DNA of 64,000 nt from a virus (IMGVR_UViG_3300029258_002750:1-64000); one strand, 5' to 3'; counted from the first letter of the stretch, positions 6,439 to 28,297 are shown. The notes: generated by a model not told the origin, from the sequence alone. Numbers and translations are program-made.

Positions 6439-6525
6439 CGCACACCGGAGCCCGTGGCGGGCCGATCGAGGGGGCTCGCGGCTCCTGATACCTACCCCAG
6501 GGAGAGGGCCTCAGAGGGCCGGGAT

Positions 6526-6598
6526 GGACGTGGTGGGAGTCGAACCCACAACTTCAACCATTTTAAGTGGTTAGCCTCTGCCGTTGGGCTACACGTCC
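6526..6598 (-). tRNA. tRNA with anticodon UAA (Leu codon UUA), short variable loop
   Basis: A 7-bp acceptor (GGACGTG/CACGTCC), an anticodon loop CTTAAAA on a perfect AACCA/TGGTT stem, and a T-loop TTCGACT are visible. The D-loop has G18-G19 and the T-loop has U55, so this is the canonical elbow, unlike most tRNAs in the array. A leucine anticodon on a short-variable-arm body is unusual for bacteria. Confidence 0.8.
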
Positions 6599-8375: not shown

Positions 8376-8530
8376 CCCACGACGTAAGGGGCGGGGGACT
8401 TCATGGTGTTTCCACCTCTGGCGCGTCTACCATTCCGCCACCGACCACTGAGACGGCCGGGCGGGACTCGAACCCGCACGCTCTATCGAGCACCAGCTTG
8501 CAGGATGTAGTCTCCCAAGGCATTCGTGGG
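8376..8530 (-). ncRNA. Y RNA-like element enclosing a circularly permuted tRNA-Leu module
   Basis: The outer helix P1 is CCCACGA/TCGTGGG (8524-8530 with 8376-8382). It is followed by ATGC, then P2 GGGAGAC/GTCCCCC and the loop start TACATC, the core shared with six other elements here. Inside lies a tRNA in permuted order. The 3' half (8454-8507, anticodon arm to acceptor) comes first, then a 6-nt linker, then the 5' half (8422-8447, acceptor and a leucine-type D-arm). The two acceptor strands pair 7/7 including two G-U pairs. If read as tRNA, the loop TGCAAGC places CAA. The T-loop (TTCGAGT) and D-loop GG are canonical. Confidence 0.65.
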
Positions 8531-8802: not shown

Positions 8803-8876
8803 TAGCGCGGGCAGGATTTGAACCTGCGATCTCCGGGTTATGAGCCCAGCGTCATACCGAACTAGACTACCGCGCG
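8803..8876 (-). tRNA. Initiator-type tRNA-fMet (CAU)
   Basis: The anticodon loop CTCATAA sits on a stem with three consecutive G-C pairs (GGG/CCC), and position 1-72 is an unpaired C-U, both hallmarks of initiator tRNA. D-loop GG and T-loop TTCAAAT are canonical. Confidence 0.85.
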
Positions 8877-8945
8877 TCGTTGTGCAGGGAGAACAGAGTC
8901 CCTTTGTCCTGGTCGAGCCAGGCTTACGCGACCTGCACCGCGATT

Positions 8946-9300
8946 TGGAGCTGGCGAGAATCGAACTCGCGTCCTGTAACCTATCCACCCGCGCGTCTAC
9001 GTGCGTAGCTCGCTCTCCTTAGTCCCCTCGTCTGAGCGCGAGCGTCTCTGGCGAGCGGGCGCCTCTAGGGAGTGTTCTCGTCCTTCACCGGGCGAGGCCC
9101 CGGATCAGGTACCAGCCCATCTTGTGGCCCAGACCTTTCACCCCATGGGCGGGGGATCCAGCTGGGGGCGGCCTTTTAGGCTGCCAGGCGAACAGGTGCG
9201 TTGGCAACTATTCAGTTTCCAGGTTGTTTATAGAGGCCAACCTGGGACCTCTACACGCAACGCGAGCTTCACCGGCCCAGTCGATACCAGTGTCAGCCCC
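8946..9300 (-). ncRNA. ssrA: tmRNA (ssrA)
   Basis: The 5' end GGGGCTGACACTGG and the 3' end with T-arm TTCGATT and CCAGCTCCA match the conserved tmRNA tRNA-like domain. The tag reading frame is at 9176-9205: after AATAGTT, the codons GCC to GCC-TAA encode ANAPVRLAA, giving AANAPVRLAA with the charged alanine. Several pseudoknot-like hairpins lie between. tmRNA rescues stalled ribosomes. The phage copy keeps the canonical TTC T-loop, unlike most phage tRNAs around it. A GGGTATAAC motif lies 120 nt upstream. Confidence 0.9.
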
Positions 9301-9419
9301 GTGTGTTCGTGCCCAAGTTGTCAAAGAGCGGAGGAACGGACCGGACGCTTCTCATAAGGGGGAAAGTGGGGATTCGATAGGCGCTACCCGGTCCGCTTCT
9401 CCTTCTCACTCGCTGTCTT

Positions 9420-9429: not shown

Positions 9430-9458
9430 TGCGGCCGACAGCCGCAAGGAAGTTTCAT

Positions 9459-9529
9459 GGGTCCGCAGGGATTCGCACCCTGACCGCCTCGGGTAAAAGC
9501 CGAGCGTGCTCCTGTTACACCACGAACCC
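9459..9529 (-). tRNA. tRNA-Lys (UUU), A18/G55 class
   Basis: Acceptor GGGTTCG/CGGACCC; loop CTTTTAC on a perfect CTCGG/CCGAG stem gives UUU. The D-loop reads ...CAGG with A18-G19 and the T-loop is TGCGAAT (G55). Confidence 0.85.
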
Positions 9530-9534
9530 GTGGT

Positions 9535-9600
9535 ACCCCCGCCCGGAGTCGCACCGGGGTCGCCGGGTTTAGAAGACCTGGCCGCCTCTCTGCCGGGGGC
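9535..9600 (-). tRNA. tRNA-Arg (UCU), shortened D-arm, A18/G55 class
   Basis: The anticodon loop CTTCTAA gives UCU. The region between acceptor and anticodon stem is only 13 nt, against 18-19 in its neighbours, so the D-arm is truncated and the gene is 66 nt. The T-loop is TGCGACT. Confidence 0.7.
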
Positions 9601-9604
9601 AAAA

Positions 9605-9674
9605 GCGGGCACCGGGAATTGCACCCGGGTCATCGGGATGGAAGCCCGACGCTCTACTTCTAAGCTATGCCCGC
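9605..9674 (-). tRNA. tRNA-Gly (UCC), A18/G55 class
   Basis: Acceptor GCGGGCA/TGCCCGC; loop CTTCCAT gives UCC. The D-loop is TAGAAGTAG where the usual glycine tRNA has TAGTGGTAG, and the T-loop is TGCAATT. Confidence 0.85.
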
Positions 9675-9679
9675 GAGAT

Positions 9680-9750
9680 GACCCCGGTGGGGATCGCACC
9701 CACACCTTCGGCGTGAAAGACCGACATCCAGACTACTAGACCACGGGGCC
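9680..9750 (-). tRNA. tRNA-Glu (UUC), A18/G55 class
   Basis: Acceptor GGCCCCG/CGGGGTC; loop CTTTCAC gives UUC. The D-loop begins AGTAG in place of AGTGG, and the T-loop is TGCGATC. Confidence 0.85.
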
Positions 9751-9837
9751 AGGTGGCCGAGCGGGAGGGCTCGGCCGGGGGCGACCGGAAGACCGGACGC
9801 ACTCCACCATCACAGACTCGCTCGCGCGAGTTGCGAT
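9751..9837. other. 87-bp spacer with a strong hairpin
   Basis: The spacer between the Glu and Val tRNAs holds an 8-bp perfect inverted repeat (GGCCGAGC / GCTCGGCC) and two smaller ones. I see no T-arm, no open frame and no Y-like core; it may be a processing or termination structure. Confidence 0.35.
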
Positions 9838-9908
9838 GGGCACGGTGAGAATCGCACTCACGACCTCTGCTACGTCAAAGCAGCGCTCTTCTACTGAGCT
9901 ACGCGCCC
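9838..9908 (-). tRNA. tRNA-Val (GAC), A18/G55 class
   Basis: Acceptor GGGCGCG/CGTGCCC; loop TTGACGT gives GAC. D-loop AGTAGAA and T-loop TGCGATT. Confidence 0.83.
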
Positions 9909-9995
9909 CGGCAACCGCCCGGTCCGTCAGGACCGTATTCCACCTTGGACGGATGGTGCATCCCTTCATCTAAACACGGGTCTAAGAGGCGGCAC

Positions 9996-10076
9996 GGAAG
10001 GCGGAGGAGTTGCACCCCATCCCGAAGGACCATCCGGTTTCAAGCCGGTACTCGGCGCTGGCCGAGATCGCCTTCC
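9996..10076 (-). tRNA. tRNA-Ser (UGA), class II, A18/G55 class
   Basis: Acceptor GGAAGGC/GCCTTCC; loop CTTGAAA gives UGA; a long variable arm closes with TCC/GGA. D-loop CCAGCG and T-loop TGCAACT. Confidence 0.82.
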
Positions 10077-10082
10077 AGACAT

Positions 10083-10154
10083 GGAGCCTACGGGACTCGC
10101 ACCCGTGCCCTCCGACCTGCCAGATCGGCGCTCTCCTAACTGAGCTAAGGCCCC
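10083..10154 (-). tRNA. tRNA-Ala (GGC), A18/G55 class
   Basis: Acceptor GGGGCCT/AGGCTCC; loop CTGGCAG gives GGC. D-loop AGTTAGGA numbers as A14-G15-U16-U17-A18-G19-G20-A21; T-loop TGCGAGT. Confidence 0.86.
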
Positions 10155-10159
10155 TCGAT

Positions 10160-10230
10160 GGAGCAGAAGGGAATTGCACCCTCAACCTCGGCGTTGCGAA
10201 CGCCGCGCTCTCCTATTGAGCTACTGCCCC
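10160..10230 (-). tRNA. tRNA-Ala (CGC), A18/G55 class
   Basis: Acceptor GGGGCAG/CTGCTCC; loop TTCGCAA gives CGC. D-loop AATAGGA; T-loop TGCAATT. Its first bases contain the stop codon of the zinc-ribbon gene 10221-10709. Confidence 0.85.
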
Positions 10231-10709
10231 GTGTGTTCGTGTTCTCCGCAGTCGCCGCAGTCGTGATCGCAGTGGGGACACTTGCCCTCCTCCGAGCACT
10301 CGCCGCAGACCGTGGTGACGGTCGTCATGTCCGGGTACTCCCTGAGCATCTTCTCGGCTAGCTGCCGGATGGGCAGCCCCGGAACACTCGGGTCCGGCTC
10401 GGCAGCCTTGCCGCAGACCGAACACTTCGTGTTCTCCAGGTGTTTGGCGAGCGCGTCGATCTTCGCTGCGTCGATCTTCGCGAAGGCATCGTGCTCGAAC
10501 TGGAGGACAGCGACCTGCCCGGTTGAGTAGTTCTCGGCGACCGGGTAGTCGGTGCCGCCGCGACCACATCGTGCGCAGGCGCGCATCATCATCGGATCGA
10601 GCGGTCGCTCCGGCTTGACCTCGGTCTGCGTGTGCTGCACGACCACGATCATCCGGCCGACGGATGGCGCGTCCTCACAGAACGCGCACCAGACGGGCTC
10701 ATCAACCAC
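10221..10709 (-). CDS. Zinc-ribbon protein, 162 aa, stop codon inside tRNA-Ala(CGC)
   Basis: The start is taken at GTG 10709 with GGAGG about 5 nt upstream. The protein has CAFC and CARC near the N-terminus, then CSVC ... CGEC ... CPHC and a His/Cys-rich tail (CDHDCGDCGEHEH). The second half resembles the 72-aa protein at 6604-6822, so the two are probably related. The TAG stop is formed by tRNA positions 8-10, so the gene and the tRNA overlap by 10 nt and must be cut from one transcript. Function unknown. Confidence 0.65.
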   Translation of the reverse strand: MVDEPVWCAFCEDAPSVGRMIVVVQHTQTEVKPERPLDPMMMRACARCGRGGTDYPVAENYSTGQVAVLQFEHDAFAKIDAAKIDALAKHLENTKCSVCGKAAEPDPSVPGLPIRQLAEKMLREYPDMTTVTTVCGECSEEGKCPHCDHDCGDCGEHEHTGQ

Positions 10710-10720
10710 TACGACCTCCG

Positions 10721-10783
10721 AATCGGGCACCCGGGATTCGCACCCGGAGTCTCTCCTGATGAGATGAGAGAGACAACCCAATC
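10721..10783 (-). tRNA. tRNA-like gene with no D-arm
   Basis: A T-arm CCGGG-TGCGAAT-CCCGG is clear, and GATTGGG/CCCGATT could close an acceptor. Between them is only one 8-bp hairpin with a 10-nt loop containing CAT. No D-arm is present. It may be a degenerate or D-armless tRNA of the G55 class. Confidence 0.4.
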
Positions 10784-10852
10784 GGGGAACCCGGAGTTGC
10801 ACCGAGATTACACCGTCCCGAACGGCGCGTGTTGCTGTTACACCATTCCCCG
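10783..10852 (-). tRNA. tRNA-Pro (CGG), A18/G55 class
   Basis: Acceptor CGGGGAA/TTCCCCG; loop TTCGGGA gives CGG. D-loop TAACAGCAA; T-loop TGCAACT. The stop codon of the upstream nuclease gene lies in its D-arm. Confidence 0.84.
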
Positions 10853-11458
10853 TAGTTCGTCGATGTCCCGAATCTCGTCCACGACCGCAGCCAACCGCGC
10901 CCGCCGCTTCGCGCCGAACACACCGCGCTTGTCGTTCACGAAGGCGATCTTCCGCCTCGGGTCATCTTGAATGTCCTCGAACCTGACGATCATGTCGTCG
11001 ATTCCTCGTCGGGCGTGCGTCGAGTGCTCGATGATCAGATCATCGTCTGCGAAGTCCACAGCGCGCTCCCCGATCCACTCCTTCCGAAAGGTGCGGCCGA
11101 AGAGGCGCTCTAGCTTCCGCTTCACCGGCAACTCGTCCTGCCGATACGCTAGGCCAGCTTGCTTGAGGTTCGCACGAGTCGCGGTGAGACAGCCCTCGCG
11201 GTTGTTCTCCCACGCGGCTCGACCGCCTTGCTTGCCCCACGCACGGCGCTGCGCTTTGGTTCCGGCGATCTGGCCGGATGTTGGCGACGGCCGACGCACC
11301 GTGATCGCTTCTCGCTGCTTGGCCGAGAGCTTGATGTCTCTGACCATGTAGCGAATCGTGCTCTTGCCAAGCTCAAGTTCCTCGGCAATCTCGGTGAGCG
11401 ACGCGCCGTCCCGTCGAAGGCGTCTCGCTCGATCGCGGATCTCTTTCGGGTAAGCCAT
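10838..11458 (-). CDS. HTH protein with a Vsr/EDxHD-like nuclease domain, probable homing endonuclease
   Basis: The protein has 206 residues from ATG 11458. Residues 1-45 form a helix-turn-helix (LTEIAEELELGKSTIRYMV). The middle has basic segments and GRAAWENNREG, typical of DNA-binding repeats in phage homing enzymes. The C-terminal part, with FRKEWIGERAVDFADDDLI followed by IEH, fits the Vsr-like/EDxHD nuclease fold. Its position between tRNA genes suits a free-standing homing endonuclease. Its stop codon TAA is inside tRNA-Pro(CGG). The catalytic call is by motif only. Confidence 0.6.
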   Translation of the reverse strand: MAYPKEIRDRARRLRRDGASLTEIAEELELGKSTIRYMVRDIKLSAKQREAITVRRPSPTSGQIAGTKAQRRAWGKQGGRAAWENNREGCLTATRANLKQAGLAYRQDELPVKRKLERLFGRTFRKEWIGERAVDFADDDLIIEHSTHARRGIDDMIVRFEDIQDDPRRKIAFVNDKRGVFGAKRRARLAAVVDEIRDIDELRGMV

Positions 11459-11465
11459 ACGAGCA

Positions 11466-11526
11466 TCTTACCCACGCGACCTCTGCGATTACAAGAGCGC
11501 GCTGACTAGACTGCGCTACAGTCCGT
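11466..11526 (-). other. 5' tRNA-like fragment upstream of the HTH-nuclease gene
   Basis: The segment reads like an acceptor strand, TA, a D-arm (GCGC-AGTCTAGTC-) and an irregular anticodon arm. It runs into the nuclease gene start without a T-arm or 3' acceptor. It is probably a broken tRNA. Confidence 0.35.
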
Positions 11527-11531
11527 TGAAC

Positions 11532-11615
11532 GGAACGCGGAGGACTTGCACCCCAGACCTTTCGGCCCCAGCCGGGTTCGAGCCGGTGCCCGCGCGCTTG
11601 TCGGGTTCGCGTTCC
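11532..11615 (-). tRNA. tRNA-Ser (CGA), class II, A18/G55 class
   Basis: Acceptor GGAACGC/GCGTTCC; loop CTCGAAC gives CGA; the variable arm is GGCC-GAAA-GGTC. D-loop ACAAGCG; T-loop TGCAAGT. Confidence 0.83.
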
Positions 11616-11704
11616 TTGGAGCAGCGCGCCTGGCGTCTCACCAGGAGACGCCGAAGCGCCCAGGGATACCGTTGCCGTACGACCGGCTCCCACGCCTGCA
11701 AGAT
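11616..11704. other. 89-bp spacer with an 8-bp hairpin
   Basis: It contains the perfect inverted repeat GGCGTCTC/GAGACGCC with a 5-nt loop. No T-arm, reading frame or Y-like core is seen. Confidence 0.3.
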
Positions 11705-11772
11705 CCCGCAGGAGAGGCTTGCACTCTCTTGCTCGTCCTTATGAGAGACGGCCCACTCTACGTGTCTGCGGG
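11705..11772 (-). tRNA. tRNA with CAU anticodon (elongator Met or Ile2), short D-arm, A18/G55 class
   Basis: Acceptor CCCGCAG/CTGCGGG; loop CTCATAA. The D-arm is CAC-GTAGA-GTG with a 5-nt loop that still has A18-G19. T-loop TGCAAGC. Identity depends on whether C34 is modified to lysidine. Confidence 0.75.
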
Positions 11773-11777
11773 TTGAA

Positions 11778-11847
11778 GCCCTAGCCCGGAGTCGCACCGG
11801 GGTCTCCTCCGTACCAAGGAGGTGTTCTGCTCTTGGACCACTAGGGC
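11778..11847 (-). tRNA. tRNA-Thr (GGU), A18/G55 class
   Basis: Acceptor GCCCTAG/CTAGGGC; loop TTGGTAC gives GGU. D-loop with AAGAGCA; T-loop TGCGACT. Confidence 0.84.
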
Positions 11848-11852
11848 AAGAT

Positions 11853-11925
11853 CAGGGCGGTGGGATTCGCACCCACGGTCTCGTGTCCCCCAGACACGCG
11901 CCTTACTAGACTAGGCCACGCCCTG
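11853..11925 (-). tRNA. tRNA-Pro (GGG), A18/G55 class
   Basis: Acceptor CAGGGCG/CGCCCTG; loop CTGGGGG gives GGG. D-loop AGTCTAGTA; T-loop TGCGAAT. Confidence 0.84.
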
Positions 11926-11930
11926 TTGAT

Positions 11931-12001
11931 ACTCGCGCCGGGAATCGCACCCGGATCTCCTCTTTCGGAGAGAGGTATCCTATCTTTTGGACGACGCGAG
12001 C
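11931..12001 (-). tRNA. tRNA-Arg (CCG), A18/G55 class
   Basis: Acceptor GCTCGCG/CGCGAGT; loop CTCCGAA gives CCG. D-loop AAAAGATA; T-loop TGCGATT. Confidence 0.83.
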
Positions 12002-12006
12002 TTGGT

Positions 12007-12079
12007 ACTCCCGGCAGGATTCGCACCTGCGAAGACCTCTTTAGGAGAGAGGCGCCTTAGTCTGCTCGGCCACGGGAGC
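12007..12079 (-). tRNA. tRNA-Arg (CCU), A18/G55 class
   Basis: Acceptor GCTCCCG/CGGGAGT; loop CTCCTAA gives CCU. D-loop with GAGCAGA; T-loop TGCGAAT. Confidence 0.84.
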
Positions 12080-12083
12080 GCAA

Positions 12084-12154
12084 GCCCCGACTCGGAGTTG
12101 CACCGAGTTCTCCTCCGTACGAAAGAGGCACATCACTCTTTATGCTTTCGGGGC
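12084..12154 (-). tRNA. tRNA-Thr (CGU), A18/G55 class
   Basis: Acceptor GCCCCGA/TCGGGGC; loop TTCGTAC gives CGU. D-loop AAAGAGTGAT; T-loop TGCAACT. Confidence 0.82.
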
Positions 12155-12247
12155 AGGATCGGGCATGTCCCAAGAGCACCCGGCCCCTAGAAGGCCGGAC
12201 TCATGGGCGTGCATCGCAGCGCCTAGAACGCCGTGAGTCCCGATCAC
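12155..12247 (-). ncRNA. Structured spacer RNA, unassigned
   Basis: A closing helix GATCGGG/CCCGATC brackets two internal hairpins (ACTCA...TGAGT with GGCGT/ACGCC, and CCGGCC/GGCCGG), each with TTCTAGG in it. It lacks the ATGC/TACATC core of the Y-like elements. It is probably a structured RNA, but I cannot name it. Confidence 0.4.
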
Positions 12248-12330
12248 GGAGGAGGGGGGAGTCGCACCCCAACCTGACGGACCACCCGGATTCCAGCCGG
12301 GGCTCGGAGCTACTCCGAGTTCTCTCCTCC
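12248..12330 (-). tRNA. tRNA-Ser (GGA), class II, A18/G55 class
   Basis: Acceptor GGAGGAG/CTCCTCC; loop CTGGAAT gives GGA; long variable arm. D-loop AGTAGCT; T-loop TGCGACT. Confidence 0.83.
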
Positions 12331-12356
12331 AGCAGAGCTGGGTCAGCGCAGACCTG

Positions 12357-12926
12357 CTACGCGACCCGCTCCTTCGCCAGGAACGGCTCCCAGCTCGCCA
12401 GGACCACACCGCGCGGGACCCGCAGGCCGGGCTTCCAGCTCGGGGCGGCAGGCTTCTTCCTGGGCCGCATCTTGGCTTCCTTCGGCATCTTGTCGGCCTT
12501 GCGCGCGTTGCAGCTCTCGCAGGCCGCGACGCAGTTCTCCCAGGTCGTCGGCCCGCCCTTGGAGCGGGGCGTGACGTGGTCGATCGTGAGCTTCCTCGGG
12601 GGAAGCTCGGCGCCGCAGTACTGGCAGGTGTGCTCATCGCGCCTGTAGAGGTTCGGCCGGTTGAAGCTGACCCTCTGTGGTGGCCGCTCGCCGTACTTCT
12701 TGCAGACGACCACCTCGGGGGCCGGGATCGGCTGGCCCGCCGTCTTGATCATCCGATCGGTGTCGGCGCGCTCGATCCACTCCTCGAGCGTCATCAGGTA
12801 GAAGCTCGTCGGGCACATGATCGAGGCCATGTCCCTCATCACGTTGCAGAGGGCGACCTTGATCGGCAGGAACGTGACCGGCTGCCAGTTCCTATTCAGC
12901 ACCAGGCAAGGTTCGTCGATGATCAC
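12357..12926 (-). CDS. HNH endonuclease, 189 aa
   Basis: The core CQYCG, LTIDHVTPRSKGG, WENCVAAC and CNARK is a complete HNH motif with two CxxC zinc pairs, near residues 97-145. The N-terminal 90 residues (MIIDEPCLVLNRNWQPV) match the common actinobacterial/phage HNH type with an N-terminal recognition segment. Such enzymes cut DNA and are often mobile; this one sits alone between tRNA-Ser(GGA) and tRNA-Pro(UGG). ATG 12926. Confidence 0.85.
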   Translation of the reverse strand: MIIDEPCLVLNRNWQPVTFLPIKVALCNVMRDMASIMCPTSFYLMTLEEWIERADTDRMIKTAGQPIPAPEVVVCKKYGERPPQRVSFNRPNLYRRDEHTCQYCGAELPPRKLTIDHVTPRSKGGPTTWENCVAACESCNARKADKMPKEAKMRPRKKPAAPSWKPGLRVPRGVVLASWEPFLAKERVA

Positions 12927-12939
12927 GGCTCTCTCCGAT

Positions 12940-13012
12940 CAGGGAGGCGGGAGTCGCACCCGCATGATGTCCTGGTCCCAAACCAGGCGGCTTACTGTTA
13001 GCCCACTCCCTG
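12940..13012 (-). tRNA. tRNA-Pro (UGG), A18/G55 class
   Basis: Acceptor CAGGGAG/CTCCCTG; loop TTTGGGA gives UGG on CCTGG/CCAGG. D-loop AACAGTA; T-loop TGCGACT. Confidence 0.85.
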
Positions 13013-13028
13013 GTGGCTGGTTGGTGGC

Positions 13029-13179
13029 ACGCAGACGAGGACTCGAACCCCGCAAAGACCATCGGCCTGGGCCGTTTCCTACGATAACCCGGAGCACCCT
13101 TCCCTCCCTCTCCGTTCCGAGCTTCGCGTAGGACTCCACTCGACACTGAGTTCGCTCGTGGCGCTCTGCCGATCTGCGC
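13029..13179 (-). ncRNA. Interrupted tRNA-like RNA with canonical T-arm
   Basis: The 3' part has T-arm CGGGG-TTCGAGT-CCTCG, acceptor TCTGCGT and an encoded CCACCA-like end. The matching 5' acceptor GCGCAGA lies 144 nt upstream, followed by a small D-like hairpin. About 70 nt of extra sequence, including TCCTACG/CGTAGGA, separates the halves. It could be an intron-containing tRNA or another tRNA-mimicking RNA. Confidence 0.4.
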
Positions 13180-13188
13180 ACCGATGAC

Positions 13189-13270
13189 GGAAGGCGGGAG
13201 ACTCGCACTCCAACCCGAAGGACGCACGCCTTAGCAGGGCGGCCCGGCTCGCTTGTCCGGTTCACCTTCC
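13189..13270 (-). tRNA. tRNA-Ser (GCU), class II, A18/G55 class
   Basis: Acceptor GGAAGGT/GCCTTCC; loop CTGCTAA gives GCU; long variable arm. D-loop with ACAAGCG; T-loop TGCGAGT. Its first nine bases contain the stop of the sulfotransferase gene. Confidence 0.82.
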
Positions 13271-13825
13271 AGTGGTCTTGGGGTAGCCGAAGCGATCGAA
13301 GTCGTCGCCCCACTTCTCGACTACCATCCGCTCGATCTCCGGCGTGTACTGGCTCTGCCAGTCGGCCGTGATCGGGCTCTGCGGGACGATGTGCAGCCGC
13401 TCGTTGGCGACGAACGGCAGCTCGCTGAAGCTCGCCTGGAGCTGTTCGTAGCGGATCAGCTGGGCGGGCTCGATCTCTCCCAGCCGAGCTGACTGGGACT
13501 CGAAGCCGGACCCTGCGGTCCTCTCAACGAAGGCCCCGAAGTCGTCCGGCCTCGCGCGGACGAACTCGCCCAGCTCGTTGGGCCACCGGGACACCCAGTT
13601 CCAGCAGGAGACCATTCTGCTGAATGGGTTCCTCACGGTCGCGATCACGAGGTAGCTCTCGCACCCGGTCGGGATCCCGATCCGATGCGTGAGCATCCGA
13701 CCGTCCTGCTCGCCGCCGATGCAGCCGAACCTGTCGCGCAGCGTGTGGAACACGCAGCGGGTGCCGGTCCGCATGTTGGCGAGGAAGACGAAACGGTGCG
13801 CGTGCGAGACGTTCATCTCGCGCAT
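13262..13825 (-). CDS. Sulfotransferase-family protein, 187 aa
   Basis: The N-terminal FLANMRTGTRCVFHTL fits the 5'-phosphosulfate (PAPS) binding loop, and VRNPFSRMVSCWNWV fits the 3'-phosphate binding motif of the sulfotransferase-2 family. The substrate is unknown. Candidates include a nucleoside, an RNA base or a host glycan, but that is speculation. Two starts are possible (13825 and 13816). The gene lies between tRNA-Ile(GAU) and tRNA-Ser(GCU), and its TGA stop falls inside the tRNA-Ser acceptor. Confidence 0.72.
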   Translation of the reverse strand: MREMNVSHAHRFVFLANMRTGTRCVFHTLRDRFGCIGGEQDGRMLTHRIGIPTGCESYLVIATVRNPFSRMVSCWNWVSRWPNELGEFVRARPDDFGAFVERTAGSGFESQSARLGEIEPAQLIRYEQLQASFSELPFVANERLHIVPQSPITADWQSQYTPEIERMVVEKWGDDFDRFGYPKTTGR

Positions 13826-13833
13826 CGTCGCAT

Positions 13834-13906
13834 AGGGCCACTGGGACTTGCACCCAGCGCCTCCGGCATATCAGACCGGCGCTCTACCTGCATGAGCTAT
13901 GACCCT
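13834..13906 (-). tRNA. tRNA-Ile (GAU), A18/G55 class
   Basis: Acceptor AGGGTCA/TGGCCCT; loop CTGATAT gives GAU. D-loop ATGCAGGTA; T-loop TGCAAGT. Confidence 0.84.
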
Positions 13907-13911
13907 GTGAT

Positions 13912-13986
13912 GGTCCCGGTCGGATTTGCACCGACAACCTCTTGGCCCTCGACCAAGCGCCTCTGCTGTTGGGCTACGAGACCGGA
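13912..13986 (-). tRNA. tRNA-Leu (GAG), short variable loop, A18/G55 class
   Basis: Acceptor GGTCTCG/CGGGACC; loop TCGAGGG gives GAG but with C33 in place of U33. The variable loop is short, unlike bacterial leucine tRNAs. D-loop AACAGCAGA; T-loop TGCAAAT. Confidence 0.74.
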
Positions 13987-13987
13987 C

Positions 13988-14052
13988 GCTCGACGTTGTT
14001 GGTGCCGCAGACGTGCATGTGTTCAGGATGTAGTCCACGACGGCATTCGAGC
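13988..14052 (-). ncRNA. Y RNA-like element, short form
   Basis: P1 GCTCGA/TCGAGC, then ATGCC, P2 CGTGGAC/GTCTGCG (two G-U pairs), loop start TACATC, 3' junction ending CAACG. There is no tRNA module. It lies two bases from the flanking Leu(GAG) tRNA. Confidence 0.6.
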
Positions 14053-14056
14053 TGAT

Positions 14057-14128
14057 GATCCTGGTCGGATTTGCACCGACAACCTCCGCATCCTGAGTGC
14101 GGCGCCTCTGCTGTTGGGCTACAGGATC
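14057..14128 (-). tRNA. tRNA-Leu (CAG), short variable loop, A18/G55 class
   Basis: Acceptor GATCCTG/CAGGATC; loop CTCAGGA on CCGCA/TGCGG gives CAG. D-loop AACAGCAGA; T-loop TGCAAAT; class I variable loop. Confidence 0.82.
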
Positions 14129-14132
14129 GTAT

Positions 14133-14203
14133 GTCCCGGGAGGGATTTGCACCCTCAACTCTGGTGTTTGAGACCAGCGGCGTTGCTATTAGCCTACCGG
14201 GAC
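14133..14203 (-). tRNA. tRNA-Leu (CAA), short variable loop, A18/G55 class
   Basis: Acceptor GTCCCGG/CCGGGAC; loop CTCAAAC on CTGGT/ACCAG gives CAA. D-loop with AATAGCAA; T-loop TGCAAAT. Confidence 0.82.
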
Positions 14204-14209
14204 TCTTCC

Positions 14210-14301
14210 GATGTTCTTTCCGCAGAACGTCGGTGTCTGACTGTTGCAGTTGGGGCAGAGGAAGCACCAGACCAGTGCCTCTGCTGTTGGGCTAGCGGAG
14301 C
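14210..14301 (-). other. tRNA-like 5' fragment
   Basis: It starts like a tRNA (GCTCCGC, TA, then a D-arm identical to that of the Leu tRNAs with AACAGCAGA), followed by hairpins but no recognisable T-arm or closing acceptor. It is probably a decayed tRNA. Confidence 0.35.
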
Positions 14302-14305
14302 TGGT

Positions 14306-14378
14306 AGGGCGCCTGGGAATCGCACCCAGCTTGGAAAGGGTTATAAGCACCTCCGCGACACCTAGCCGCCCGCGCCCC
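14306..14378 (-). tRNA. tRNA-Ile (UAU), A18/G55 class
   Basis: Acceptor GGGGCGC/GCGCCCT; loop CTTATAA gives UAU on a stem with one mismatch. D-loop GCTAGGTGT; T-loop TGCGATT. Confidence 0.75.
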
Positions 14379-14382
14379 TCAT

Positions 14383-14455
14383 GCCCCCGGTGGGAGTTGC
14401 ACCCACAATCTCTCGGTCCGTAGCCGAGCGCCTTAGTCTGTTTGGCCACGGGGGT
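14383..14455 (-). tRNA. tRNA-Arg (ACG), A18/G55 class
   Basis: Loop CTACGGA on CTCGG/CCGAG gives ACG. Acceptor ACCCCCG/CGGGGGC has a 1-72 mismatch. D-loop with AACAGA; T-loop TGCAACT. Confidence 0.82.
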
Positions 14456-14460
14456 TGGAT

Positions 14461-14531
14461 ACCCGGACTGCGAGTCGCACGCAGAACTCGAGGTCCACAA
14501 CCTCGCGTGATCACTGTTTCACCATCCGAGC
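14461..14531 (-). tRNA. tRNA-His (GUG), A18/G55 class
   Basis: Acceptor GCTCGGA/TCCGGGT; loop TTGTGGA on CGAGG/CCTCG gives GUG. D-loop AAACAGTGAT; T-loop TGCGACT. Confidence 0.83.
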
Positions 14532-14536
14532 TGGAA

Positions 14537-14606
14537 GCGGCCTGCGGGAGTTGCACCCGCGCGAAGAGCTTGGGAAGCTCTCATGCTGCTGCTACATCAA
14601 GGCCGC
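14537..14606 (-). tRNA. tRNA-Gly (CCC), A18/G55 class
   Basis: Acceptor GCGGCCT/AGGCCGC; loop TTCCCAA gives CCC. D-loop TAGCAGCAG; T-loop TGCAACT. Confidence 0.85.
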
Positions 14607-14672
14607 GTGCGCCGGATACCCAGGGGGGCTCCCCAGGCCAGCCGGTCCTTGCCGTGCTGCTTGCGATCCGAT
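14607..14672. other. 66-bp spacer, unassigned
   Basis: It has a GGGG/CCCC hairpin and a weak closing CGGAT/ATCCG pair. I see no gene in it. Confidence 0.25.
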
Positions 14673-14754
14673 CCGCCTGCGTGGATTCGCACCACGTTGC
14701 TCCGAAGAGACCCGGGTTACAGCCGGGCACGACCACTAGGTCGACCCCAGACGG
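14673..14754 (-). tRNA. tRNA-Tyr (GUA), class II, G55 class
   Basis: Acceptor CCGTCTG/CAGGCGG; loop CTGTAAC on CCCGG/CCGGG gives GUA; long variable arm TCTCTTCGGAGC. T-loop TGCGAAT; the D-arm is compact (GACC-TAGT-GGTC). Confidence 0.78.
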
Positions 14755-14759
14755 TTGAA

Positions 14760-14829
14760 GCGGCCTACGAGAATCGCACTCGTGACTACAGCATGGCAAG
14801 CTGTCGCGTTACTACTACGCCAAGGCCGC
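14760..14829 (-). tRNA. tRNA-Gly (GCC), A18/G55 class
   Basis: Acceptor GCGGCCT/AGGCCGC; loop TTGCCAT on ACAGC/GCTGT gives GCC. D-loop TAGTAGTAA; T-loop TGCGATT. Confidence 0.85.
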
Positions 14830-14839
14830 GTTGTAAGGG

Positions 14840-15017
14840 GCTCTCGCTGGGAATTGAACCCAGATCCTCCACACCACGATCGCTTCATAGCCGACCGAAG
14901 CCATCCACGGTCGCGCGGTCTGTGCGGCGTGCTTGCCATCCGACGAGCGTCAGAAACCGGGGCTGCTCGGCCCGGCACTGCGGTAGCTCGTGGACGACCC
15001 CATACACCATCGAGAGC
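14840..15017 (-). ncRNA. Interrupted tRNA-like or Y-like RNA with canonical T-arm
   Basis: T-arm CTGGG-TTCAATT-CCCAG and acceptor-like CGAGAGC lie at the 3' end; the complementary GCTCTCG lies 171 nt upstream and is followed by ATGGTGTATGGGG. That start resembles the 5' part of Y RNAs. The middle has several hairpins, including a 6-bp one whose loop contains CTATGAA. I cannot decide between an intron-bearing tRNA and a tRNA-mimicking Y RNA. Confidence 0.4.
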
Positions 15018-15103
15018 ATGTGTTCAGCTGGGCCATGAGGGAGTCGCACCCCCGCCTTCTCGGTGTGAACGAGATGCGCTTCTGTTACACCAATGGCCCG
15101 GGT

Positions 15104-15234
15104 TCCGACGACGTGAAGGCGACGAGAGGGTTATCTAGCCACCACGGCCCTCTCCACGAAAGCGGAGAGACTGGGAGTCGAACCCAGATCGATCGAGTTA
15201 CAGTCGATGTACTCCCATCAGGGCATTCGTCGGA
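15104..15234 (-). ncRNA. Y RNA-like element enclosing a permuted tRNA-Tyr-like module
   Basis: P1 TCCGACGA/TCGTCGGA (8 bp), ATGCC, P2 GATGGGAG/CTCTCGTC, then TAC. The interior first gives an anticodon arm ATCGA-CTGTAAC-TCGAT (GUA), a canonical T-arm (TTCGACT) and acceptor TCTCTCC (15164-15208). After an 8-nt linker comes GGAGAGG (15149-15155), which pairs with that acceptor. The D-arm is less clear than in the Leu and Met modules. Confidence 0.55.
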
Positions 15235-15235
15235 T

Positions 15236-15306
15236 GGAGTAGGTGGGAGTTGCACCCACGACCCTCGGTTTGCAGGACCGACGCTCTCCTACTGAGCTAC
15301 TACCCC
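15236..15306 (-). tRNA. tRNA-Ala (UGC), A18/G55 class
   Basis: Acceptor GGGGTAG/CTACTCC; loop CCTGCAA gives UGC, with C33 instead of U33. D-loop AGTAGGA; T-loop TGCAACT. Confidence 0.78.
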
Positions 15307-15311
15307 AAGAC

Positions 15312-15382
15312 GGCCCCCGTGGGATTCGCACCCACAACCTCACGGTCCAAAGCCGCGCGCTCTGCTGTTGAGCTAGGGGGCT
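15312..15382 (-). tRNA. tRNA-Gln (UUG), A18/G55 class
   Basis: Loop CTTTGGA gives UUG. Acceptor AGCCCCC/GGGGGCC has a 1-72 mismatch. D-loop AACAGCA; T-loop TGCGAAT. Bases 8-10 supply the stop codon of the 15373-15624 frame. Confidence 0.82.
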
Positions 15383-15624
15383 AGGTTCTTCTCGCGCTCG
15401 CGCGCTCGAATGATCGCAAGCTCGACCTTGCGCTCGCGGGCGGTCTTCTTCCCGCGCTTCTTCGCCAGGCACGTGTAGCAGTGCCTCGGCGGTTGGTGGC
15501 CGCTCCGCGCGGCCCGTTCGATGTGCTTCAGCTTGATCGGCCGATCGCACGCCCTGCATCGTCGGCCGCTCTCTTCAGCGAAGTGCGGCCAGTGGTAGTC
15601 CTTCTCTCGCTTGTTGGTGGCGAT
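15373..15624 (-). CDS. Small zinc-finger protein, possible ATC start, stop inside tRNA-Gln
   Basis: An 83-codon frame has CRAC and CYTC pairs separated by a basic helix and followed by a highly basic tail (KKRGKKTARERK), which suggests a nucleic-acid-binding zinc finger. No ATG, GTG or TTG precedes the conserved part. The only signal is AGGAGG followed by ACT-ATC, so either a rare ATC start is used or the 5' end is damaged. The TAG stop is formed by tRNA-Gln(UUG) positions 8-10. Confidence 0.45.
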   Translation of the reverse strand: MATNKREKDYHWPHFAEESGRRCRACDRPIKLKHIERAARSGHQPPRHCYTCLAKKRGKKTARERKVELAIIRAREREKNLAP

Positions 15625-15644
15625 AGTCCTCCTGGCTGGCGGAT

Positions 15645-15716
15645 AGCGTCGCCCGGATTCGAATCGGGATCCTCACAGGTTATGAGCCTGGCGAGCTACC
15701 GTTGCTCTACGACGCG
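15645..15716 (-). tRNA. tRNA with CAU anticodon (Met), canonical elbow
   Basis: Loop CTCATAA; acceptor CGCGTCG/CGACGCT with an unpaired C1-U72 as in the initiator, but without the GGG/CCC anticodon pairs. D-loop AACGGTA and T-loop TTCGAAT are canonical. Confidence 0.78.
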
Positions 15717-15718
15717 AC

Positions 15719-15791
15719 GGCCCCCCTGGGATTTGCACCCAGAAACCTCCGGTTCCAGAGACCGGCGCTCTACTGATTGAGCTAGGGGGCT
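15719..15791 (-). tRNA. tRNA-Gln (CUG), A18/G55 class
   Basis: Loop CTCTGGA on CCGGT/ACCGG gives CUG. Acceptor AGCCCCC/GGGGGCC. D-loop AATCAGTA; T-loop TGCAAAT. Confidence 0.84.
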
Positions 15792-15794
15792 AGG

Positions 15795-15861
15795 CGCCCG
15801 ACGTTGGTGGTTGCCGTGTCGAGCACATGTTGGAGATGTAGACACAGCTGGCATTCGGACG
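15795..15861 (-). ncRNA. Y RNA-like element, short form
   Basis: P1 CGTCCGA/TCGGGCG (7 bp, one G-U), ATGCC, P2 CTGTGTC/GACACGG, loop start TACATC, 3' junction ending CAACG. There is no tRNA module. The CGTCCGAATGCC start is the copy most like metazoan Y RNA 5' ends. Confidence 0.62.
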
Positions 15862-15863
15862 AC

Positions 15864-15934
15864 AGGCCGCCTGGGAATCGCACCCAGCAGACGGCAGGTT
15901 TTGGAGACCCGCCCGCGTACCTAGCGCGCGACCT
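15864..15934 (-). tRNA. tRNA-Trp (CCA), A18/G55 class
   Basis: Acceptor AGGTCGC/GCGGCCT; loop CTCCAAA on CGGGT/ACCTG gives CCA. D-loop CTAGGTA; T-loop TGCGATT. Confidence 0.8.
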
Positions 15935-15938
15935 AGAA

Positions 15939-16009
15939 GTGCCGCCCCGGAGTTGCACCGGGCTCTTCGGTGTTGCAGACCGACGGATGAACTGATCTCC
16001 CTGCGGCAC
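15939..16009 (-). tRNA. tRNA-Cys (GCA), A18/G55 class
   Basis: Acceptor GTGCCGC/GCGGCAC; loop CTGCAAC on TCGGT/ACCGA gives GCA. D-loop GATCAGTTCA; T-loop TGCAACT. Confidence 0.83.
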
Positions 16010-16014
16010 GTGGC

Positions 16015-16085
16015 TTACCCCCTGGGATTCGCACCCAGAACATCCTGGTTAACAGCCAGGCACTCTACTATTGAGCTAGGGGTAA
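16015..16085 (-). tRNA. tRNA-Asn (GUU), first copy, A18/G55 class
   Basis: Acceptor TTACCCC/GGGGTAA; loop CTGTTAA on CCTGG/CCAGG gives GUU. D-loop AATAGTA; T-loop TGCGAAT. Confidence 0.85.
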
Positions 16086-16086
16086 C

Positions 16087-16157
16087 TCAGCCCCTCGGAT
16101 TTGCACCGAGACCTCCTCCGGTAACAGCGGAGCGCTCTACTACTAAGCTAGGACTGA
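16087..16157 (-). tRNA. tRNA-Asn (GUU), second copy, A18/G55 class
   Basis: Acceptor TCAGTCC/GGGCTGA; loop CTGTTAC on CTCCG/CGGAG gives GUU. D-loop AGTAGTA; T-loop TGCAAAT. The stems differ from the first Asn copy. Confidence 0.83.
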
Positions 16158-16158
16158 T

Positions 16159-16229
16159 GACCCGGACGGGAATCGCACCCGCACTCTTCGGCGTGAGAGA
16201 CCGACGTGTTTCTGTTACACCACCGGGCC
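16159..16229 (-). tRNA. tRNA-Glu (CUC), A18/G55 class
   Basis: Acceptor GGCCCGG/CCGGGTC; loop CTCTCAC gives CUC. D-loop TAACAGAAA; T-loop TGCGATT. Confidence 0.84.
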
Positions 16230-16233
16230 AGAT

Positions 16234-16304
16234 GGGCCTGCTCGGATTTGCACCGAGAACATCCTGGTTAAGAGCCAGGCGTGATCCTGTTTCACCACAG
16301 ACCC
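16234..16304 (-). tRNA. tRNA-Lys (CUU), A18/G55 class
   Basis: Acceptor GGGTCTG/CAGGCCC; loop CTCTTAA on CCTGG/CCAGG gives CUU. D-loop AAACAGGAT; T-loop TGCAAAT. Confidence 0.85.
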
Positions 16305-16308
16305 AAGC

Positions 16309-16381
16309 GGGGAGATTCGGGAGTTGCACCCTCATTCACCGGCACGTGCTGCCGCTCGTGACGGATACCTGCTCGGTCCCC
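16309..16381 (-). tRNA. Irregular tRNA-like gene, possibly Val (CAC)
   Basis: A D-loop with CAGGT and a T-loop TGCAACT place it in the A18/G55 class. Only 5 bp of acceptor (GGGGA/TCCCC) pair, and the best anticodon loop, AGCACGT, has G33. It may be degenerate. Confidence 0.4.
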
Positions 16382-16386
16382 AAGAC

Positions 16387-16460
16387 GGCCGCGACGGGAT
16401 TCGCACCCGCGATCTCCACCGTGACAGGGTGGCATGTTGACTTGGCTACACCACGCGACC
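16387..16460 (-). tRNA. tRNA-Asp (GUC), A18/G55 class
   Basis: Acceptor GGTCGCG/CGCGGCC; loop CTGTCAC on CCACC/GGTGG gives GUC. D-loop TAGCCAAGTCAA; T-loop TGCGAAT. Confidence 0.84.
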
Positions 16461-16466
16461 AGGTTG

Positions 16467-16602
16467 ACGTCCGAGTGAGGGAACCGCGAGTAGGTGCTCT
16501 TCCACTTGAGCTAGTTCGCCCCGAGTGGCGAACCCTGGAGTCGAACCAGGAACATCCCGCTGATGAAGCGAAAGTGCGTGTAGGATTCTCTCGGCCGGAC
16601 GC
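16467..16602 (-). ncRNA. Y RNA-like element enclosing a permuted tRNA-Met module
   Basis: P1 GCGTCCG/CGGACGT and P2 GAGAGAATC/GGTTCCCTC (one mismatch) enclose a complete tRNA in permuted order. The 3' half (16527-16572) has TTCGC-TTCATCA-GCGGG (CAU), T-arm CCTGG-TTCGACT-CCAGG and acceptor GTTCGCC. A 6-nt linker follows, then GGCGAAC, TA and a perfect D-arm GCTC-AAGTGGAA-GAGC (16495-16520). Joined at position 26/27, the parts give a 72-nt cloverleaf with canonical G18-G19 and U55. This is the clearest permuted module. Confidence 0.68.
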
Positions 16603-16606
16603 CGAT

Positions 16607-16677
16607 GGGACCCCTCGGAATTGCACCGAGACCTTCCGGTTTTCAGCCGGGTGCTCTACTGGTTGAGCTAAGGCCCC
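16607..16677 (-). tRNA. tRNA-Phe (GAA), A18/G55 class
   Basis: Acceptor GGGGCCT/GGGTCCC; loop CTGAAAA gives GAA. D-loop AACCAGTA; T-loop TGCAATT. Confidence 0.82.
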
Positions 16678-16812
16678 AAGACAGCGAGTTGTCAATGAGC
16701 AGTGCGTTGACGCGCCGATCCGACTAGCTAGGTCAGGGGCAACGCCCTCGTCTTGTGCTTCCCTGGACTGAGGAGGCCGCGATTCCTTTCCACGATTCTC
16801 CTTTTGTCCTAA
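16678..16812. other. 135-bp leader-like gap between Phe and Thr tRNAs
   Basis: On the - strand it has TTGACA (16689-16694) just before tRNA-Phe and a 21-codon frame with a good ribosome binding site (AAAGGAGA). Neither is convincing alone. Confidence 0.25.
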
Positions 16813-16879
16813 GCCCTTGCTCGGAGTCGCACCGAGACTCGCGGAGTACAAGACCGCGATCCGTCTCACGGACAAGGGC
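16813..16879 (-). tRNA. tRNA-Thr (UGU), shortened D-arm, A18/G55 class
   Basis: Acceptor GCCCTTG/CAAGGGC; loop CTTGTAC gives UGU on CGCGG/CCGCG plus a T-T pair. The D-arm CCG-TGAGA-CGG has a 5-nt loop. T-loop TGCGACT. It is the first gene of the array in transcription order. Confidence 0.76.
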
Positions 16880-28221: not shown

Positions 28222-28223
28222 AC

Positions 28224-28297
28224 ACACCCGGAGGGACTCGAACCCCCGACCAGCACGATCTACCGTCGCACCGCTCTACCTTCTGAGCTACGGGTGC
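28224..28297 (-). tRNA. tRNA with canonical elbow, anticodon reads GUA with G33
   Basis: Acceptor GCACCCG/CGGGTGT, D-loop AGAAGGTA (G18-G19), T-loop TTCGAGT. The 7-nt anticodon loop CGGTAGA would give GUA, but U33 is G, so identity is unsure. It stands alone, outside the array. Confidence 0.7.

Follow-up and report, generated by a model that had tools for sequence, protein, structure and literature searches.

The stretch of DNA analysed here, referred to as the window, comprises the first 64 kb (64,000 nucleotides) of the 275,101-base IMG/VR virus record IMGVR_UViG_3300029258_002750 and carries on its minus strand a large array of tRNA genes in which G18 of the D-loop and U55 of the T-loop, the partners of the conserved elbow contact of tRNA, are replaced by A18 and G55 (Table 1). 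Between positions 9400 and 16900 of the minus strand the loop TGC(A/G)A, and hence G55, is found in 43 T-arms, 39 of them with a perfect 5-bp stem; G55 T-arms with such a stem are absent from the plus strand of this interval, and a single one occurs in the window from 16.9 kb onward. About 30 of the G55 genes were detected by ARAGORN and a similar number by Infernal above the gathering score, and a cloverleaf parser added Ser, Thr, Met-CAU and Ile-UAU genes to this set. The original prediction had spoken of about 41 A18/G55 tRNAs. The swap is real, but the count is better given as 43 G55 T-arms, with A18-G19 secure in 37 of the 40 genes that could be parsed. The rest of the 275,101-base record contains no tRNAs.

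Two objections to this reading are that the apparent position 55 is really 56 or 57 and that residue 18 is G in most of the genes. The first fails on the alignment to Rfam model RF00005 (gathering cut-off 29 bits), over the full length of which some 30 G55 array genes score 45-67 bits: Infernal places the T-loop G at the model position of U55 and A-G at G18-G19, and G53, U54, C56, A58 and C61 are conserved around them. As to the second, A18-G19 is obtained under every standard numbering in 37 of the 40 parsed window genes, and position 18 is ambiguous in the other three, namely Ile-GAU at 13833 (ATGCAGGTA), Arg-UCU near 9534 with its reduced D-arm and Met-CAU at 11704 with the 5-nt loop GTAGA. 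D-loops such as AACAGGA are read as A14 A15 C16 A18 G19 G20 A21, since with GG at 18-19 residue 20 would be missing. Three more G55 T-arms have an odd 5' half (Thr-UGU at 16812-16879, Trp at 15863-15934 and one at 10747), and the Ser, Trp and mini-D-arm genes score under the RF00005 cut-off or are missed; the minimal D-loops GTAGA and TGAGA of the unusual genes still include A-G.

The same pair was looked for in related phages, and a search with the Ro protein encoded beside the array recovered two contigs with a set-wide swap: L047, of 159,664 bases, whose Ro protein is 85% and capsid protein about 95% identical to that of the window phage, and L171, of 74,465 bases, for which these values are 52% and about 70%. 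Unambiguous A18/G55 genes number 30 in the window phage, 28 in L047 and 22 in L171. Contig L172 and Myxococcus phage Mx1, which are more distant and also encode Ro, have large canonical G18/U55 sets, so that the set-wide swap is a trait of this lineage. We rejected Mx1 as a close relative or as a clue to the host, because tblastn shows only Ro and an HNH protein in common. Mx1 itself has a single CAU tRNA with an AG D-loop, a TGC T-loop and a poor acceptor stem (L173, 15346-15419), a situation opposite to that in the window lineage. A search for further relatives with the capsid gene returned one contig, 95% identical and 52 kb long, without tRNAs.

Over the three phages 83 converted genes were parsed. 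G53 and C61, which the parser did not demand, are present in 100% of them and A18 in at least 96%; U54, C56, a purine at 57 (R57) and A58 also reach 100%, partly by design as the parser demanded them. G19 is found in all parsed D-loops, U60 in 98% of the genes, and A57 in 51% as against 20% in canonical viral tRNAs. The G18-U55 pairing of the tRNA model is absent from the converted genes, which have A18/G55 instead. As far as the genes themselves tell, the replacement is confined to the 18-55 contact, the G19-C56 face and the U54-A58 pair being predicted to be intact. U55 is the site of TruB and G18 that of TrmH (PMC7912444), and since both residues have been exchanged as a unit, both sites are lost. 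The proposed loss of the target bases for pseudouridine 55 (Ψ55) and 2'-O-methylguanosine 18 (Gm18) is thus borne out by the Infernal alignment and the parsed genes, as is the proposed coupling of positions 18 and 55 by the parsed genes of three phages and by covariation across viruses (see below).

Most array genes have perfect stems and U33, all three Ala genes have G3:U70, and the anticodons of the G55 genes span all 20 amino acids, in agreement with the original prediction. With ordinary wobble reading, the codons that the G55 set leaves unread are TTA, CTA and GTA, which jointly make up about 7 in every thousand codons; TTA (0.4 per thousand) is read by the canonical tRNA-Leu(UAA). With a decoding set this nearly complete the phage could translate almost everything with its own tRNAs. 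Some of the genes are unusual in other respects. The tRNA-Leu genes at 6525, 13911, 14056 and 14132 have class-I short variable loops, and in L047 and L171 some Leu genes with matching anticodons have long variable arms. In tRNA-His(GUG) residue 73 is A and a G-1:C73 pair, as found in most bacteria, is not evident; the gene is alike in L047. The minimal or missing D-arms (GTAGA at 11704-11772, TGAGA at 16812-16879, and Arg-UCU at about 9534-9606 with hardly any D-stem) are conserved in L047.

Table 1. Features of the tRNA array and its surroundings in the 64,000-nucleotide window. A, ARAGORN; I, Infernal; P, cloverleaf parser; S, T-arm scan; C, sequence comparison.
Feature	Position	Strand	Basis
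tRNA array, 43 G55 T-arms, anticodons for 20 amino acids	9458-16879	-	A, I, S, P
tRNA-Lys(UUU), D-loop AACAGGA (A18 G19 G20), T-loop TGCGAAT	9458-9529	-	A, I, P
tRNA-Arg(UCU), reduced D-arm, T-loop TGCGACT, conserved in L047	9534-9606	-	S, P; structure by inspection
tRNA-Gly(UCC), A18/G55	9604-9674	-	A, I, P
tRNA-Glu(UUC), A18/G55	9679-9750	-	A, I, P
tRNA-Val(GAC), A18/G55	9837-9908	-	A, I, P
tRNA-Ser(UGA), A18/G55, missed by ARAGORN	9995-10076	-	P
tRNA-Ala(GGC), G3:U70, A18/G55	10082-10154	-	A, I, P
tRNA-Ala(CGC), G3:U70, A18/G55	10159-10230	-	A, I, P
G55 T-arm, 5' half without clear fold, possible tRNA remnant	10723-10790	-	S; approximate boundaries
tRNA-Pro(CGG), A18/G55	10782-10852	-	A, I, P
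tRNA-Ser(CGA), A18/G55, missed by ARAGORN	11531-11615	-	P
Elongator-type tRNA(CAU), paired C1-G72, mini D-loop GTAGA, G55; D-arm identical in L047	11704-11772	-	P, C
tRNA-Thr(GGU), A18/G55	11777-11847	-	A, I, P
tRNA-Pro(GGG), A18/G55	11852-11925	-	A, I, P
tRNA-Arg(CCG), A18/G55	11930-12001	-	A, I, P
tRNA-Arg(CCU), A18/G55	12006-12079	-	A, I, P
tRNA-Thr(CGU), A18/G55	12083-12154	-	I, P
tRNA-Ser(GGA), A18/G55, missed by ARAGORN	12247-12328	-	P
tRNA-Pro(UGG), A18/G55	12939-13012	-	A, I
tRNA-Ser(GCU), A18/G55, missed by ARAGORN	13188-13270	-	P
tRNA-Ile(GAU), G55, position 18 ambiguous	13833-13906	-	A, I, P
tRNA-Leu(GAG), short variable loop, A18/G55	13911-13983	-	A, I, P
tRNA-Leu(CAG), short variable loop, A18/G55	14056-14128	-	A, I, P
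tRNA-Leu(CAA), short variable loop, A18/G55	14132-14203	-	A, I, P
tRNA-Ile(UAU), A18/G55, weak anticodon stem	14305-14378	-	P
tRNA-Arg(ACG), A18/G55	14382-14455	-	A, I, P
tRNA-His(GUG), A18/G55, A73	14460-14531	-	A, I, P
tRNA-Gly(CCC), A18/G55	14536-14606	-	A, I, P
tRNA-Tyr(GUA), long variable arm, A18/G55	14672-14754	-	A, P
tRNA-Gly(GCC), A18/G55	14759-14829	-	A, I, P, C
tRNA-Val(CAC), A18/G55	15029-15099	-	A, I, P
tRNA-Ala(UGC), G3:U70, A18/G55	15235-15306	-	A, I, P
tRNA-Gln(UUG), A18/G55	15311-15382	-	A, I, P
tRNA-Gln(CUG), A18/G55	15718-15791	-	A, I, P
tRNA-Trp(CCA), G55, short D-region, residue 18 not assignable, conserved in L047	15863-15934	-	S; boundaries by inspection
tRNA-Cys(GCA), A18/G55	15938-16009	-	A, P
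tRNA-Asn(GUU), A18/G55	16014-16085	-	A, I, P
tRNA-Asn(GUU), second copy, A18/G55	16086-16157	-	A, I, P
tRNA-Glu(CUC), A18/G55	16158-16229	-	A, I, P
tRNA-Lys(CUU), A18/G55	16233-16304	-	A, I, P
tRNA-Asp(GUC), A18/G55	16386-16460	-	A, I, P
tRNA-Phe(GAA), A18/G55	16606-16677	-	A, I, P
tRNA-Thr(UGU), mini D-loop TGAGA, G55; relative in L047 at 12389	16812-16879	-	S; boundaries by inspection
Initiator-type tRNA-Met, C1xU72, GGG/CCC anticodon stem, canonical G18/U55	8803-8876	-	A, P, C
Initiator-type tRNA-Met, C1xU72, canonical G18/U55	15644-15716	-	A, P, C
tRNA-Leu(UAA), short variable loop, canonical G18/U55; same in relative (L170, 3331)	6525-6598	-	A, P
Tyr-like tRNA-like gene, TTC loop, without U33, not in converted set	28223-28297	-	A, I, P
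Transfer-messenger RNA (tmRNA), T-loop TTCGATT (canonical U55)	8943-9300	-	I
Ro60/Rsr-like protein, TROVE and Ro60 vWA domains, adjoins array	17340-19016	-	Domain matches
tRNA-like part (TTC, GG) of probable YrlA-type Y RNA	16493-16557	-	YrlA 29.4 bits, gathering score 69
Probable Y RNA: Ro-binding-like stem GAATGCC...ACTACAT and permuted tRNA-like T-arm/D-arm (TTC, GG)	8423-8530	-	Approximate boundaries
Probable Y RNA, TTC tRNA-like domain	15145-15230	-	Stem; tRNA match sub-threshold
Short Y RNA-like stem GAATGCC...ACTACAT, conserved in L047	13990-14050	-	Stem

The original prediction held that the genes with an ordinary TTC T-loop keep G18. This stands for Leu-UAA at 6525 and the Met genes at 8803 and 15644, and the Tyr-like gene at 28223 is compatible with G18 and lacks U33. 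The latter, an isolated tRNA-like gene off the array with GG and TTC, has a similar form in L047 (4119-4191). The exceptions are real but they are not random: initiator-type CAU tRNAs of the three phages have U55 in seven of seven cases, six of them with a C1xU72 mismatch and one with U1-G72 and a GGG/CCC anticodon stem, the loop length leaving G18 ambiguous in three of these. Where 1-72 is paired, as in an elongator-type CAU tRNA, G55 is found in four of four cases (the one at 16912 of L171 was read from its sequence). Since initiators are spared, it seems that elongators are the target of the relevant factor. The tmRNA also retains U55 in its T-loop.

How the converted genes arose was addressed by comparing them with canonical viral tRNAs after masking positions 18 and 55 and the anticodon. 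For 37 of 63 converted genes the nearest canonical viral tRNA is specific for the same amino acid, where 3.5 would be expected, and such matches cover 13 amino acids (A, D, E, G, I, K, L, N, P, R, S, T and V); 39 of the 63 are nearer to a foreign tRNA for the same amino acid than to a tRNA of their own array for another. Gly-GCC of the window and of Mx1, for instance, have GCGT-AGT(A/G)GTA-ACGC in common and differ at 18 and 55 among otherwise invariant elbow positions. With at least 13 ordinary isoacceptor families as sources, conversion must have occurred many times, family by family, and duplication of a single ancestor is disfavoured as the origin of the array.

The pair also occurs elsewhere. 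In other viral contigs the same parser counted 13 A18/G55, 458 G18/U55, 3 A18/U55 and 4 G18/G55 tRNAs (Fisher p=1.4e-19), the last four being register errors by their appearance on inspection, and the two positions covary with hardly an exception; of the 13, L021 and L028 were retrieved as loci by the A18/G55 pattern and the other 11 were not. A18/G55 is thus a rare alternative that recurs in individual phage tRNAs (Cys, Thr, Pro, Ser and others), and isolates with one such tRNA include Pseudoalteromonas phage J2-1 (Cys). Single A18/G55 tRNA-like genes were seen in viral contigs L020, L022-L024 and L026-L035; many have perfect acceptor and T stems and lack a normal 7-nt anticodon loop, and they are possibly a family of non-decoding tRNA mimics. 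Among cells, a pattern search found A18/G55 tRNAs in 34 of 295 genomes of the phylum to which a Micrarchaeota archaeon belongs; the pattern matches 3 genes of the window, and genes were read from the best 30 tRNA matches per genome. In archaeal genome G048 the pair is present in the three parsed tRNA-Ala genes (UGC, GGC, CGC), each of which has G3:U70, against G18/U55 in 28 other tRNAs, and in G020 it is present in two tRNA-Ala (G3:U70) and tRNA-Thr-GGU. As all tRNA-Ala genes seen there are A18/G55, this elbow very probably supports translation in those archaea. Other Micrarchaeota loci and genomes (L048-L050, G004 and others) likewise have it in every Ala isoacceptor found, with G3:U70 preserved, and sometimes in Thr, some with anticodon-loop introns. 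Loci L021-L050 and the Micrarchaeota were first met through a pattern with a D-arm/T-arm gap of 28-40 nt, which favours long-loop or intron-bearing tRNAs (normal gap 25-26) and misses every window tRNA, so that its counts are no census of viruses or cells. For bacteria, the rarity of A18/G55 is taken from reviews rather than from a genome count; according to these, G18 and U55 are conserved in all domains of life (PMC7912444, PMC6337575).

The genome has the features of a large phage. It encodes a T4-type Gp23 capsid protein, about 30% identical to that of the nearest named phages, a Gp20 portal and a prohead protease, as well as RecA, Cpn10, a sigma-70 region and DNA methylases, and the window proteins include a DnaB-type helicase and a DNA polymerase. 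The source is a large T4-like tailed phage, and tmRNA and capsid indicate a bacterial host. Domain scans, which took in part of the genome's genes, found RNA-repair-type domains (2'-5' RNA ligase and HAD 'Swiss Army Knife RNA repair'), and a phage TruB or RtcB was sought in the genome and not found.

A suppressor tRNA selection by the Steinberg group (J Mol Biol 2004) reportedly showed that G at 55 demands A at 18 with U54-A58 kept, an arrangement termed the specific purine trap. The combination said to define it (A18 with G55, R57 and U54-A58) is present in the converted genes at the level of sequence. The pair is the same, but there it was obtained by laboratory selection in one suppressor tRNA and here it is found in a natural, whole elongator set. 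The tRNA-Ala of Micrarchaeota likewise has the same pair with conserved surroundings, in cellular tRNAs; unlike in the phage it is limited to Ala (and Thr in one genome), and the other parsed tRNAs lack it. tRNAPyl and type II/III mitochondrial tRNAs also have no G18-Ψ55 pair (PMC7609411); these lose G19-C56 or the loop contact as well, whereas in the phage only 18-55 is altered. Changes in the anticodon loop are known to let phage tRNAs evade tRNA-targeting defence (van den Berg et al. 2023, PMC10264068), and phage tRNAs are also known to act against retrons (PMC11555353). Such tRNAs resemble those described here in being phage-encoded, in forming large arrays and in carrying changes that possibly spare them from nucleases, but here it is the D-loop/T-loop elbow that is changed, and nearly every elongator shares the change; the words T-loop, D-loop and elbow were looked for in PMC10264068 and do not occur there. 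Self-sufficient phage tRNA sets are described as replacing lost host tRNAs in the passage of PMC12482277 that refers to Yang et al. (2021). Like the present array, they provide a near-complete decoding set in a large phage. We know of no report of an altered elbow in such sets, and a literature search for A18/G55 tRNA arrays found nothing. The original prediction's remark that no described tRNA set of this kind was known to it needs qualification: the set-wide conversion of elongators is new, but single A18/G55 tRNAs already occur in scattered phages and in Micrarchaeota tRNA-Ala.

Five observations have to be explained together: positions 18 and 55 change as a pair, nearly the whole set is affected, many isoacceptor families gave rise to it, three phages conserve it, and initiators are exempt. 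They suggest that the phage's working tRNAs have been selected to differ from those of the host. We propose, in a reading that we hold to have an even chance of being right, that A18·G55 replaces G18·Ψ55 in nearly the whole elongator complement of this T4-like lineage such that the L-shape is kept, the Ψ55 and Gm18 sites are gone, and the tRNAs are set apart from host tRNAs and escape tRNA attack or loss. A18 would still stack between R57 and the U54-A58 pair at the same intercalation site, and the unchanged G19-C56 above it would retain the L-shape and the surface for RNase P, the CCA enzyme and the ribosome, while TruB would find no uridine and TrmH no guanosine on the converted tRNAs. These would work in translation and, less certainly, being distinguishable at the elbow, might escape a host defence that attacks tRNAs or a phage-driven loss of host tRNAs, so that phage translation could continue while host tRNAs are attacked or lost; the original prediction had likewise suggested that enzymes or nucleases recognising the elbow might be blinded. 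The RNA-repair-type domains and the lack of a phage TruB fit this proposal. A number of points weigh against it. The argument for function is drawn from sequence, no specific elbow-reading nuclease of host or phage was identified, and the tRNA-directed defences cited are aimed at the anticodon, the variable loop or the tail. tRNA-Leu(UAA) is canonical in two of the three phages, and in L047 (12856-12970) a canonical Asn-GUU adjoins a decayed, truncated A18/G55 Asn remnant, an apparent replacement in progress; a canonical elongator can therefore be tolerated, and not every elongator strictly needs the change. More speculatively, and with the chances somewhat against it, A18·G55 could be a private 'elbow code', a mark of self on elongators with initiators left canonical, by which a factor reading G18·Ψ55 separates host from phage tRNAs; that reader may be a nuclease, a modification sensor or a translation factor, of host or phage.

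But could the altered elbow not serve the tRNAs themselves, without any nuclease? The main rival explanation is that A18·G55 gives an elbow that is stable without either modification, Ψ55 or Gm18, and thereby frees the many phage tRNAs of a burst from waiting for host TruB and TrmH. The joint loss of both target bases with U54 and A58 kept, and again the lack of a phage TruB, would be expected on this account, which we nevertheless consider unlikely, as the initiator-type tRNAs and tmRNA of the same region retain U55 and so do other phages with equally large arrays. It is less probable still that a rare pair in one member of the array drifted in and was propagated by gene conversion or duplication to no benefit. 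The genes do lie close together, some are alike (Gln, Asn, Phe, Arg), and the pair is found in single tRNAs of unrelated phages. Conversion would, however, need to transfer two sites that lie far apart and leave everything else alone, no fewer than 13 isoacceptor families can still be told apart, the initiator-type gene within the array (15644) is unchanged, and the state is kept in relatives with about 70% capsid identity.

Since some cells use the pair, the phage might also simply mirror a host whose own elongators are A18/G55. We regard this as improbable: tmRNA and a T4-like capsid indicate a bacterial host, G18 and U55 are conserved across the domains of life according to reviews, not a bacterial count (PMC7912444, PMC6337575), and in the archaea checked the pair is limited to Ala and Thr. 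A candidate for a machine that spares A18/G55 tRNAs is encoded next to the array, where the Ro/Rsr gene lies close to modules with TTC loops (near 8.45, 15.2 and 16.5 kb). The original prediction took these modules for permuted tRNA genes; recurrent GAATGC...ACTACAT stems, which with approximate boundaries are also found in L047, L170, L171 and Mx1 (L173), weak matches to YrlA (Rfam RF02553; 29.4, 26.8 and 19.4 bits, including a full-length match in L171 and all under the gathering score of 69) and the Ro gene led us to replace that view, and the modules probably belong to YrlA-type Y RNAs, in which a permuted tRNA-like domain is a natural part and which are separate RNAs outside the A18/G55 set. 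According to a review (PMC8394870), bacterial YrlA serves as a substrate of TruB and as a tether between polynucleotide phosphorylase (PNPase) and Rsr. A degradation machine of phage Ro, canonical-elbow Y RNAs and host PNPase could hence be imagined to discriminate against host tRNAs, but it is disfavoured and very improbable, because Mx1, L172 and phage Pumpernickel encode Ro and have canonical tRNAs, so that Ro does not explain the swap, and because one Y-like RNA of L171 appears by eye to carry AG and a CGC T-loop. That the genes are decoys or decaying copies is hardly credible. The reduced D-arms at 11704, 16812 and in Arg-UCU and the T-arm at 10747 without a resolvable 5' half might be so construed, against which stand mostly perfect stems, U33, 20 specificities, G3:U70 in all three Ala genes, and the persistence of the genes, one with a mini-D-arm included, in relatives while their sequence diverges.

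Whichever explanation holds, G18-Ψ55, described as an invariant tRNA contact, has been naturally replaced over a nearly complete elongator set, repeatedly and with the initiators spared, and what replaces it is reportedly the very pair suggested by laboratory selection. Dozens of natural double mutants could be used to probe the purpose of the universal pair and its two modifications, and they raise the questions of whether the elbow has a different use in elongators than in initiators and whether it is read by immunity directed at tRNAs. They also offer a ready-made second tRNA set for synthetic biology. In practical terms, standard tRNA finders overlook several A18/G55 genes. tRNAs are moreover under-annotated in deposited records: ARAGORN finds 38 genes in the Mx1 stretch, where fewer are annotated, and 24 in that of Tunturi_5 (L044), where none is.

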